From an uncultured Polaribacter sp. (GTDB lineage Bacteria > Bacteroidota > Bacteroidia > Flavobacteriales > Flavobacteriaceae), in contig CANMHT010000002.1 of NCBI GenBank assembly GCA_947497755.1, forward strand, positions 496,001-560,000: a stretch of DNA of 64,000 nt. The letters run 5' to 3'. Position 1 is the stretch's first letter. Each line of letters opens with the position of its first letter. Positions 28,377-31,986 of this stretch are shown here, in pieces. The notes under the pieces were generated by a model. That model searched no databases. It was given only the letters and a program-made list of their open reading frames with translations, and was not told where the DNA came from. A program made the position numbers and the translations under genes.

Positions 28377-28398
28377 TTTTACAGATATAAATAACGAA

Positions 28399-28427
28399 AA
28401 GCACCTCAATTTGAGGTGCTTTTTTTA
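28399..28427 (+). terminator. Rho-independent terminator after pckA
   Basis: AAGCACCTCA-ATT-TGAGGTGCTTTTTTT. Confidence 0.92.
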
Positions 28428-28470: not shown

Positions 28471-29697
28471 ATGATAAAAAAACTATTTAACAATATTGGT
28501 CCAGGTACTTTAGTTGCAGCAGCATTCATTGGTCCAGGAACTGTAACTTTATGTACACTTGCTGGTGTAAATTTTGGATTTAATTTATTATGGGCAATGC
28601 TGTTGTCTATCATTGCAACTATTGTTTTACAAGAAATGGCGGCAAGACTCGGAATTATTTCTCAAAAAGGATTGTCAGAAGTAATTAGAGAAGAAATTAA
28701 ATGGCCTTATTTAAGACAATTTGTTATTGTTTTAATATTGGCTGCAATTGTAGTTGGGAATGCATCGTATGAAGCAGGAAATATTAGTGGAGGTGTATTA
28801 GGGCTAGAAACGATCTTAGGTAATACTTATATAAATATAGTAGGTTATTCTATAAATGGTGCAAGTATTTTAGTTGGTATTATCGCTTTTGTTTTATTAT
28901 ATCTTGGAAATTATAAGGTGTTAGAAAAGGTACTAGTAACTTTAGTAATCATTATGAGTTTATCTTTTGTGATTACAGCCATTATTACCAAACCTAATAT
29001 TACAGCAATTTTTAAAGGTGCATTTGTGCCGAACTTTCCTGATAAAAGTATCTTAACAATTATAGGATTAATAGGAACTACTGTAGTGCCATATAATTTG
29101 TTTTTGCATGCTTCTTTGGTTAAGGAAAAATGGAAAACAAAGGAAGAGTTGTCTTTTGCTAAAAAAGATACAATTGTATCTATTGTTCTTGGAGGTTTGG
29201 TATCTATGGCGATAATTATTTCTGCGGCAGGAGTACAATTAAATACCGTTACCAATGCATCTGACTTAGCCAAAGGATTAGCTCCTTTATATGGCGATTT
29301 TTCTAAATATTTTTTGTCTTTTGGATTGTTTGCTGCTGGGATAACTTCTGCAATTACAGCTCCTTTAGCAGCAGCTTACGTAGCAAAAGGTTGTTTAGGG
29401 TGGAAAGAAGGATTGAAATCTAAGAAGTTTAGATTGGTGTGGATAATAGTATTATTACTCGGAGTTGTCTTTTCTTCATTAGGAATTAAACCAATTGAGA
29501 TTATCAAATTTGCTCAAGTTGCAAACGGAATGTTATTGCCAATTGTGGCTGGAATCTTATTATGGATTATGAATAAAAAATCAGTTTTAGGAAATTATGC
29601 CAACTCTAAAACTCAAAATATTTTAGGTATTATTATTTTATTAGTTACTGTGTTTTTAGGAGTTAAAGGAATACTAAAGGTGTTTAATTTTATTTAG
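28471..29697 (+). CDS. Nramp-family transporter, divergent (5-oxoproline operon-associated)
   Basis: Nramp fold motifs in degenerate form: TM1 GPGTVTLCTLAGVNFG, TM6 GTTVVPYNLFLHASLV; directly upstream of pxpABC. Confidence 0.85.
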   Translation: MIKKLFNNIGPGTLVAAAFIGPGTVTLCTLAGVNFGFNLLWAMLLSIIATIVLQEMAARLGIISQKGLSEVIREEIKWPYLRQFVIVLILAAIVVGNASYEAGNISGGVLGLETILGNTYINIVGYSINGASILVGIIAFVLLYLGNYKVLEKVLVTLVIIMSLSFVITAIITKPNITAIFKGAFVPNFPDKSILTIIGLIGTTVVPYNLFLHASLVKEKWKTKEELSFAKKDTIVSIVLGGLVSMAIIISAAGVQLNTVTNASDLAKGLAPLYGDFSKYFLSFGLFAAGITSAITAPLAAAYVAKGCLGWKEGLKSKKFRLVWIIVLLLGVVFSSLGIKPIEIIKFAQVANGMLLPIVAGILLWIMNKKSVLGNYANSKTQNILGIIILLVTVFLGVKGILKVFNFI

Positions 29698-29700
29698 AAA

Positions 29701-30435
29701 ATGAAAATTATAGATATCAATTGTGATGTTGGAGAAGGAGTAGAAAACGAACATTTGTTGATGCCTTTTCTTTCTTCGTGTAATATTGCTTGTGGAGGAC
29801 ATTTTGGAGATGAACAAACAATAGCTGCAAGTATTCAATTAGCGAAACAAAACCAAATTAAAATTGGTGCTCATCCATCGTTTCCAGATAAAGCAAATTT
29901 TGGAAGAAAAGTGATTAATATTTCTTCTGAAGAATTACAGAAAAATCTTGAACAACAATTAATACTATTCAAAAATATTGCTCAAAAGAATACTGTAAAA
30001 GTACACCATGTAAAACCTCATGGCGCATTGTATAATTTAATAGCCAAAAATAGAGATACAGCAATAATAGTAGTGAGTGCCATTAAAAAATGTTTTGAAG
30101 ATGTGAAATTGTATGTGCCTTATAATTCTGTAATCGAAAAAGTAGCTATAGATAATGGATTGCAAATTGTTTACGAAGCTTTTGCTGATAGAAATTATAA
30201 TGCCGATTTATCTTTGGTTTCTAGAAGTCAGAAAAATGCTGTTATTTCTTCACCTACAGAAGTAGGTAAACATGTACTACAAATGATTCAAAATGAAAAA
30301 GTACTAACAGTTGATAAAACTAATGTAAAGATTAAAGCTGCAACTTTTTGTGTGCATGGAGATACTCCAAATGCATTAGAAATTTTAAAAGAATTAACTC
30401 AATTTTTAAAAAATCAAGAAATAAAAATTGCTTAA
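29701..30435 (+). CDS. pxpA: 5-oxoprolinase subunit PxpA (LamB/YcsF family)
   Basis: IDINCDVGEG, NIACGGHFGDE, KIGAHPSFPDKANFGR, HVKPHGALYN, EAFADRNY. Confidence 0.95.
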   Translation: MKIIDINCDVGEGVENEHLLMPFLSSCNIACGGHFGDEQTIAASIQLAKQNQIKIGAHPSFPDKANFGRKVINISSEELQKNLEQQLILFKNIAQKNTVKVHHVKPHGALYNLIAKNRDTAIIVVSAIKKCFEDVKLYVPYNSVIEKVAIDNGLQIVYEAFADRNYNADLSLVSRSQKNAVISSPTEVGKHVLQMIQNEKVLTVDKTNVKIKAATFCVHGDTPNALEILKELTQFLKNQEIKIA

Positions 30436-31144
30436 TCAACTTACATATAAACCCTATGGGAATTCGGCAATTTTAATAGAATGGAAGCCAGAAATAAGTG
30501 AGGAAATTTTGTTGGATATTTTAAGTTATAAAACTAAGATTAAAGGCAAACTTGAATTACAAGATGTTATTATTGGATACAATTCTTTACTAATTGTATA
30601 CCCTTTTCAATTAAAGGATTATCTATCAAAAGTTGAATTCTTAAAAGAACTTTATAGCAGTTCAGAATATCATATTAAGTTAGAAAGAAATCATTGGAAT
30701 ATTCCTGTGTGCTATGATGAACAATTTGGACTTGATTTAAGGGCTTTGTCAAAAGATAAAAAAATGTCAGTAGAAGAGGTAATTAAATTACATACTACTC
30801 CAACATATATGGTACATTTTATAGGGTTTTTACCAGGATTTTTATACCTAGGAGGAATGGATGCCAAGATTACAACACCAAGAAAAGCAACACCAAGATT
30901 GCAAGTGCCTAAAGGAGCAGTTGGAATAGGTGGTTCACAAACAGGTATTTATCCTAATGAAAGTGCTGGAGGTTGGAATTTGATTGGGAATTCACCTATT
31001 TCATTTTTTGATATAGATAAAACAAAGCCATGTTTTGTTAATATTGGAGACAAAATTTCATTCAAACAGATTTCTTTAGAAGAGCATAGTTATATAAATG
31101 AACAAGTGTTTAAAGGAATTTATCAAATAGAGAAGAAAATATGA
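30428..31144 (+). CDS. pxpB: 5-oxoprolinase subunit PxpB (KipI-like); TTG start overlapping pxpA
   Basis: GFLPGFLYLGGMDAKITTPRKATPRLQVPKGAVGIGGSQTGIYPNESAGGWNLIG. Confidence 0.95.
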   Translation: MLNQLTYKPYGNSAILIEWKPEISEEILLDILSYKTKIKGKLELQDVIIGYNSLLIVYPFQLKDYLSKVEFLKELYSSSEYHIKLERNHWNIPVCYDEQFGLDLRALSKDKKMSVEEVIKLHTTPTYMVHFIGFLPGFLYLGGMDAKITTPRKATPRLQVPKGAVGIGGSQTGIYPNESAGGWNLIGNSPISFFDIDKTKPCFVNIGDKISFKQISLEEHSYINEQVFKGIYQIEKKI

Positions 31145-31986
31145 TGACCGTTTTACAGTCTGGAATTTATACTTCAATCCAAGATTTGGGTAGAGTAGGT
31201 TATGCTCATTACGGAGTGCCAATTTCTGGAGCAATGGATTCATATGCTGTTAAAATTGGAAATCAGCTATTGCAAAACCCTCATAATGCTTCTGTATTAG
31301 AAATTACTTTTGGAGCCTGTGTTTTACAAGTTGATGAAGATGTAACTCTTTGTGTTACTGGTGCAAATTATAATTTTACTGTAAACGGAATGGAAACTGA
31401 AATGTATACTGTTTTTAAAGTACAACGAGGAGCCAAACTTAAGTTTGCTAATAAAAATTATGGAGCCAGAACTTATGTTTGTGTAGCTGGAGGCTTTGCT
31501 TCTGAAAGAGTATTAAATAGTCAGAGTTATTATAAAGGAATTACTAAGACTTCTCGTTTGCAAAAAGGAATGAAGTTATTGTTGAATACTACTCAAGAAA
31601 TAAGAAAACTTACTTATGCTAAGGTAAAGGTGAATAAAGATTATTTTTTTAACGCTACTATTTTGTGTAAAAAAGGCCCCGAGTTTGAGCTATTACCACT
31701 TCAGCAACAAAAAGAATTATTGACTAAAAACTTTAGTGTTTCTAAAGAACATAATAGAATGGGAGTTCGTTTAGAAGAACTTATTGAGAATAATTTACAA
31801 TCAATATTAACCTCTGGAGTTTTGCCAGGAACAGTGCAGTTAACCCCTTCAGGTAAACTGATTGTATTGATGAGAGATTGCCAGATAACCGGAGGTTATC
31901 CAAGAGTTTTACAACTCACAGAAGACGGAATCAATACCTTATCTCAAAAGTCATCTGGAGATAAGATTCGATTTAGTTTGATTTGA
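31141..31986 (+). CDS. pxpC: 5-oxoprolinase subunit PxpC (KipA-like)
   Basis: GIYTSIQDLGRVGYAHYGVPISGAMD; ATGA overlap with pxpB. Confidence 0.95.
   Translation: MMTVLQSGIYTSIQDLGRVGYAHYGVPISGAMDSYAVKIGNQLLQNPHNASVLEITFGACVLQVDEDVTLCVTGANYNFTVNGMETEMYTVFKVQRGAKLKFANKNYGARTYVCVAGGFASERVLNSQSYYKGITKTSRLQKGMKLLLNTTQEIRKLTYAKVKVNKDYFFNATILCKKGPEFELLPLQQQKELLTKNFSVSKEHNRMGVRLEELIENNLQSILTSGVLPGTVQLTPSGKLIVLMRDCQITGGYPRVLQLTEDGINTLSQKSSGDKIRFSLI

Follow-up and report, generated by a model that had tools for sequence, protein, structure and literature searches.

An Nramp-related transporter clade with replaced metal ligands accompanies 5-oxoprolinases and probably imports 5-oxoproline

We analysed a 64,000-nucleotide stretch of a contig from an uncultured Polaribacter sp. 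(the window), in which an Nramp-related transporter gene, hereafter pxpT-like, directly precedes the genes of the 5-oxoprolinase PxpABC. The protein belongs to a clade, named GPGT after its TM1 motif, that is without the metal-binding residues of canonical Nramps and is accompanied by a 5-oxoprolinase in every genome checked, and on these two grounds it is probably a carrier of 5-oxoproline. That the pxpT-like protein and its clade bring this compound into the cell is the reading that we consider likely, with both substrate and direction deduced from sequence and genomic context. It bears on a live dispute, namely whether the Nramp proteins linked to pxp genes carry Mn2+ (MntG, MumT) or 5-oxoproline (PxpT).

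The features on which the analysis relies are collected in Table 1. The claim of an earlier note on this DNA that the transporter and the three enzyme genes form one operon is borne out by their spacing, with a gap of 3 bp between pxpT-like and pxpA and overlaps of 8 bp (pxpA/pxpB) and 4 bp (pxpB/pxpC); the upstream gene pckA is set apart from them by a hairpin followed by a T-run. Pfam domains were found with E-values of 2.7e-92 (Nramp), 4.1e-82 (LamB_YcsF), 3.2e-63 (CT_C_D) and 2.1e-66 (CT_A_B), and NCBIfam named enzymes PxpA and PxpB, both above cut-off. The pxpT-like protein passes PF01566 (310 bits, gathering score 29.8) and NF037982, 'Nramp family divalent metal transporter' (109.8 bits against a cut-off of 50), but fails the MntH subfamily model NF001923 (169 bits against a cut-off of 430). 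The name given by the equivalog model NF037982 is probably mistaken, for this protein and throughout the clade: if 5-oxoproline import is true, all of its members annotated in this way are misnamed.

Table 1. Features of the pxp operon, of the transporter's substrate site and of the DUF2891 partner genes; positions are those of the window unless a locus is named.
Feature	Position	Strand	Basis
Hairpin then T-run after pckA, AAAAGCACCTCAATTTGAGGTGCTTTTTTT	28397..28423	.	consensus scan
pxpT-like gene, Nramp-related (PF01566) transporter, 408 aa, GPGT clade	28471..29697	+	ORF, Pfam, NCBIfam
TM1 motif G21-P22-G23-T24, replaces DPGN (DraNramp D56, N59)	28531..28542	+	alignment
N104 on TM3, replaces DraNramp E134; Asn also in YcsG-type proteins and fixed within the clade (49/49)	28780..28782	+	alignment
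TM6 V206-P207-Y208, replaces MPH (DraNramp M230, H232)	29086..29094	+	alignment
TM10 Q349 (= DraNramp Q378, kept) to N352 (Leu in canonical Nramps)	29515..29526	+	alignment
pxpA, 5-oxoprolinase subunit A (LamB/YcsF)	29701..30435	+	ORF, Pfam, NCBIfam
pxpB, 5-oxoprolinase subunit B, TTG start at 30428	30428..31144	+	ORF, Pfam, NCBIfam
pxpC, 5-oxoprolinase subunit C	31141..31986	+	ORF, Pfam, NCBIfam
DUF2891 lipoprotein gene, translationally coupled to GPGT transporter gene	L082 4905-6008; L162 3736-4992; L038 10227-11150		

The earlier note had read GPGT in place of DPGN and VPY in place of MPH. The open reading frames and the alignment to DraNramp agree with both readings, since TM1 AAFIGPGTVTLC aligns to DPGN and TM6 GTTVVPYNLFLHA to MPH. 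Our results show that the replacement extends to the whole clade. Indeed, DraNramp residues D56, N59, A227, M230, H232 and E134 correspond to G, T, T, V, Y and N, respectively, in 49/49 non-redundant relatives, and Q378 is the only direct metal ligand retained. The resulting signature is GxxT-TxxV, while canonical Nramps show DxxN-AxxM and NRMTs DxxG-TxxA. Variation within the clade was seen in TM1, where one member (L098) reads GPGS, and in the middle residue of TM6, which can be P, G, T or L. We also considered whether ligands are provided by neighbouring residues and rejected this idea: at or beside the replaced positions the sole conserved acidic residue is E101 (at the position of DraNramp D131; E or Q), and E134 itself corresponds to N104. 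Apart from this clade, other Nramp-related clades of Bacteroidota and Verrucomicrobiota also carry Gly where the TM1 Asp would be, reading GPGS (L054, L062, L064, L172) or GTGS (L069, L070, L072, L074, L175, L176), for which we know of no function.

The 49 aligned relatives were picked partly by motif, so that a tree built without the motif columns is a more independent test. The GPGT clade was still monophyletic in this tree (SH-aLRT 99), and a second tree, likewise built without these columns, gave bootstrap and SH-aLRT values of 99/98. Fixed in 49/49 relatives of a clade that is recovered without the motif columns, the replacement of the metal ligands is more than chance.

The association with 5-oxoprolinases was assessed in 197 sampled Bacteroidota genomes. 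A GPGT-clade protein was found in 50 of them, at an identity of at least 47% in 32 (one of them truncated where its contig stops) and of about 34-42% in 18; the motif was confirmed in the 37 proteins fetched full length, and the rest were assigned by similarity. All 50 genomes encode a 5-oxoprolinase-type enzyme (PxpA in 38, Hydantoinase_B/OPLAH in 12), compared with 26 of the 147 genomes without a GPGT protein (pxpA or Hydantoinase_B), a difference for which Fisher's test gives p=8e-28 when shared ancestry is ignored. Within the window's own family the enzyme was present in 8/8 genomes with the transporter and 2/11 without it (p=7e-4). It was also present in 12/12 further GPGT genomes or records from Pseudomonadota, Verrucomicrobiota, Flavobacteriia and one haloarchaeal plasmid, in some of which groups pxpA may be common. 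One transporter clade is the partner of both enzyme types, which are non-homologous and fall into different Pfam families. This genome-wide association with two non-homologous 5-oxoprolinases strongly backs an organic-solute role, with 5-oxoproline as the solute, although it points to the pathway and not to the transported molecule.

Physical linkage was surveyed in 140 GPGT-clade loci, 102 of which adjoin pxp genes and 13 Hyu/OPLAH genes. No Nramp locus of another type in this survey lay beside pxp or Hyu/OPLAH genes, the 4 apparent exceptions being clade members that were cut short or had a variant motif. Some GPGT-clade genes are distant from the 5-oxoprolinase gene that their genome encodes, and members of a GPGT subclade with TM6 VTY (L035, L036, L037, L041) also have no adjoining 5-oxoprolinase gene, yet one in each genome. 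The pxpABC genes are the partner in Bacteroidota and in one Pseudomonadota genome (L162). In Haloferax volcanii, H. mediterranei, Haloarcula, Haladaptatus and Halocatena, HyuA-HyuB genes directly follow the transporter gene, and the loci of these haloarchaea are on plasmids. Among the papers searched, none brought hydantoinase, Nramp and operon together. In three haloarchaeal operons with the transporter (L181, L182, L186) a gene of the aspartate/glutamate (hydantoin-type) racemase family comes after HyuA-HyuB, which suggests handling of D/L-5-oxoproline or hydantoin.

These loci bear on the idea that the main substrate is not 5-oxoproline but one or more related organic solutes, such as hydantoins, other lactams or proline- or glutamine-like compounds. 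The HyuA/HyuB families include hydantoinases and, because a racemase can follow them in haloarchaea, hydantoins are possible as substrate there. Furthermore, the hydantoin transporter Mhp1 is among the nearest PDB folds after the Nramps, along with APC amino-acid transporters, as would be the case for any LeuT-fold protein. On the other hand, PxpABC is a dedicated 5-oxoprolinase and is the more common partner in the Bacteroidota sample, and the enzyme genes of two loci, L160 (Pseudomonadota) and L038 (Bacteroidota), show a fused OPLAH layout and share 4 bp with the transporter gene. We therefore consider a main substrate other than 5-oxoproline unlikely.

Ten of the Bacteroidota genomes have pxpA and no GPGT protein. 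The neighbour of pxpA in 6 of these is an Nramp-related protein of a second kind, here YcsG-type (motifs GPGF and GGTVGGY), and in 1 an MFS protein. The YcsG-type protein is the common kind beside or near pxp genes in Bacillus, Moraxella, Rhizobium-type bacteria, Deinococcus and Lactiplantibacillus plasmids. It occurs in 7 of the 197 Bacteroidota genomes, all 7 with a 5-oxoprolinase-type enzyme, and never together with a GPGT-type protein in the same genome, as expected of substitutes. When both types are counted, the enzyme accompanies them in 57/57 genomes, and 0/121 enzyme-less genomes carry either one. The two types form separate clades in the tree, with support of 99/98 for GPGT and 100/100 for YcsG-type, the latter on a very long branch. 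An AU test on a 42-row set could not reject that the two are sisters (p=0.168), so the pxp-linked clades need not have arisen independently. Both share G21, G96, G103, N104, Y208 and N352, and the polar residues among these are hence candidate substrate contacts.

The earlier note had drawn a parallel to B. subtilis ycsG, and of this the link to a pxp operon is indeed shared. Nevertheless, motif, tree and identity rule out that the pxpT-like protein lies in the YcsG-type clade. The PDB integrative model of YcsG is 23% identical to it, and the parallel is most likely with another, very distant clade. A YcsG-type query had no match among PDB sequences. The gene order in Bacillus badius is pxpA-Nramp-hydro-lyase, matching the B. 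subtilis order ycsF-ycsG-ycsI. Based on this order and on the 23% identity, YcsG most likely belongs to the YcsG-type clade. The same is most likely true of C. glutamicum PxpT, judging from the 50% identity to YcsG that has been published for it; growth of C. glutamicum on external 5-oxoproline depends on PxpT (PMC13274462).

This placement matters for the view that the GPGT protein imports divalent metal (Mn2+), for the enzymes of its operon or as a general supply. The protein has the Nramp fold, no canonical MntH was found in the window's genome, and two proteins from comparable operons have been reported to import Mn2+: YcsG/MntG, whose earlier 5-oxoproline phenotype was possibly polar (PMC10448178), and Acinetobacter MumT, which is encoded in a urea carboxylase operon and raises cell Mn (PMC5050338). 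These reports count against the part of the earlier note that judged metal transport by the clade improbable and suggested that it may import 5-oxoproline or a related solute, a claim otherwise supported by the clade-wide ligand replacement and the association with two enzymes. However, both reports most likely concern other clades, and a role in metal transport gives no reason to expect two unrelated 5-oxoprolinases as linked partners. All direct ligands but Q378 are replaced, and the TM1 Asp, described as universally conserved in SLC11 proteins, is a residue whose mutation strongly harms transport (PMC8806188) and abolishes or strongly cuts that of metal in EleNRMT (PMC8806188) and BfraNramp (PMC12873925). 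Finally, two ZIP-family genes were found in the window's genome, and so Mn2+ supply need not depend on the pxpT-like protein even with no canonical MntH. Taken together, Mn2+ import is improbable, somewhat more so than import of a related solute. The same genome encodes a second, very divergent Nramp-family protein with GVSH in TM1 (L002; G000:C1:514013-515038).

Import of 5-oxoproline remains our preferred reading, and its possible mechanism can be outlined. A LeuT-fold, Nramp-related secondary transporter would bring 5-oxoproline (pyroglutamate) into the cell, where the PxpABC 5-oxoprolinase encoded downstream would turn it into glutamate. With the TM1 Asp and the TM6 Met and His gone and Asn at the place of the TM3 Glu, the substrate site would be neutral, and the anionic lactam could thus bind at the unwound parts of TM1 and TM6, with N104, Y208 and N352, plus backbone, as candidate polar contacts. 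The positions of E101 and R321 (DraNramp D131 and R353) are kept, which makes H+ coupling through these two residues possible, and we propose it. The direction of transport is not readable from sequence and 5-oxoproline forms inside cells too (PMC13274462), so that the protein might instead export 5-oxoproline or the product glutamate. Yet export would set the protein in competition with the catabolic enzyme encoded beside it, and the pxp-linked Nramp protein that has been studied was needed for growth on the external compound (PMC13274462). Export is hence very improbable, the least likely of the readings weighed here.

A further partner was observed in more than 50 loci, nearly all from Flavobacteriia, where the transporter gene is directly preceded by a gene for a DUF2891 lipoprotein, in most cases with an overlap. 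The two genes are coupled in most Flavobacteriia loci and also in L162 (Pseudomonadota), and in L038 the DUF2891 gene adjoins the OPLAH gene. None was found in the window's genome. Structure comparison indicates an all-helical fold with a weak likeness to alpha/alpha-barrel enzymes, and the solved relative is C. jejuni Cj0554. This is the DUF2891 protein of the cj0552-4 cluster, a mutant of which cannot use 5-oxoproline (PMC12795558). DUF2891 is therefore a likely member of the 5-oxoproline pathway, and our analysis names it as such.

The earlier note stated that the transporter had lost its metal ligands, which implies descent from a metal binder. This polarity is probably wrong, because the rooted tree of a 2026 preprint by Ray, Berry and Gaudet places Nramp-related proteins outside the canonical, metal-binding Nramps, which they surround as a paraphyletic group (PMC12873925). 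The preprint also recognises 'G-motif' Nramp-related groups, one of them with MntG, and calls all groups other than those with EleNRMT (NRMT-like) and MntG entirely uncharacterised (PMC12873925). The absence of the metal motif as such was thus already known. The novelty here lies in the proposed function of the GPGT clade and in the evidence for it. A broader idea, to which we give even chances, is that two deeply separate Nramp branches without the canonical metal site would each serve as a 5-oxoproline importer, one taking the other's place across bacteria and archaea; organic-solute transport would then be old and widespread, and canonical metal binding derived.

Comparison with known systems places the GPGT clade within the Nramp fold but apart from canonical Nramps, NRMTs and YcsG-type proteins. 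The AlphaFold model of the pxpT-like protein (pLDDT 86.8, pTM 0.88) has this fold, its best matches among solved structures being DraNramp, EleNRMT and BfraNramp (TM-score 0.82-0.87). With canonical Nramp/MntH proteins (DraNramp, ScaDMT, BfraNramp) the clade shares the fold (TM-score 0.82-0.84 for DraNramp and BfraNramp), the TM10 Gln and the TM8 Ser, whereas DPGN, MPH and the TM3 Glu are all replaced. The NRMT magnesium transporters are alike in fold (TM-score 0.87 for EleNRMT), in the TM6 Thr and in TM10, which mostly has Q and N, but they retain the TM1 Asp in their DxxG-TxxA signature (PMC8806188), and the pxpT-like protein has neither this Asp nor this signature. Two other candidates for 5-oxoproline uptake come from unrelated transporter families, namely DUF969/DUF979 of C. 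jejuni, which has a DUF2891 partner as well (PMC12795558), and the TRAP system DctP6/7 of B. pertussis (PMC13274462). The 'G-motif' groups are alike in having Gly for the TM1 Asp, and the GPGT clade is presumably one of them. The YcsG-type proteins, which most likely include C. glutamicum PxpT (cg1142) and B. subtilis YcsG (MntG), share PF01566, Gly for the TM1 Asp, the TM3 Asn, the TM6 Tyr and the pxp operons, but form a separate clade with GPGF and GGTVGGY motifs, no TM10 Gln and about 23% identity to the pxpT-like protein. To the dispute over these proteins our analysis adds a separate clade in which all direct metal ligands but one are replaced, and a list of residues, G21, N104, Y208 and N352, for settling it.
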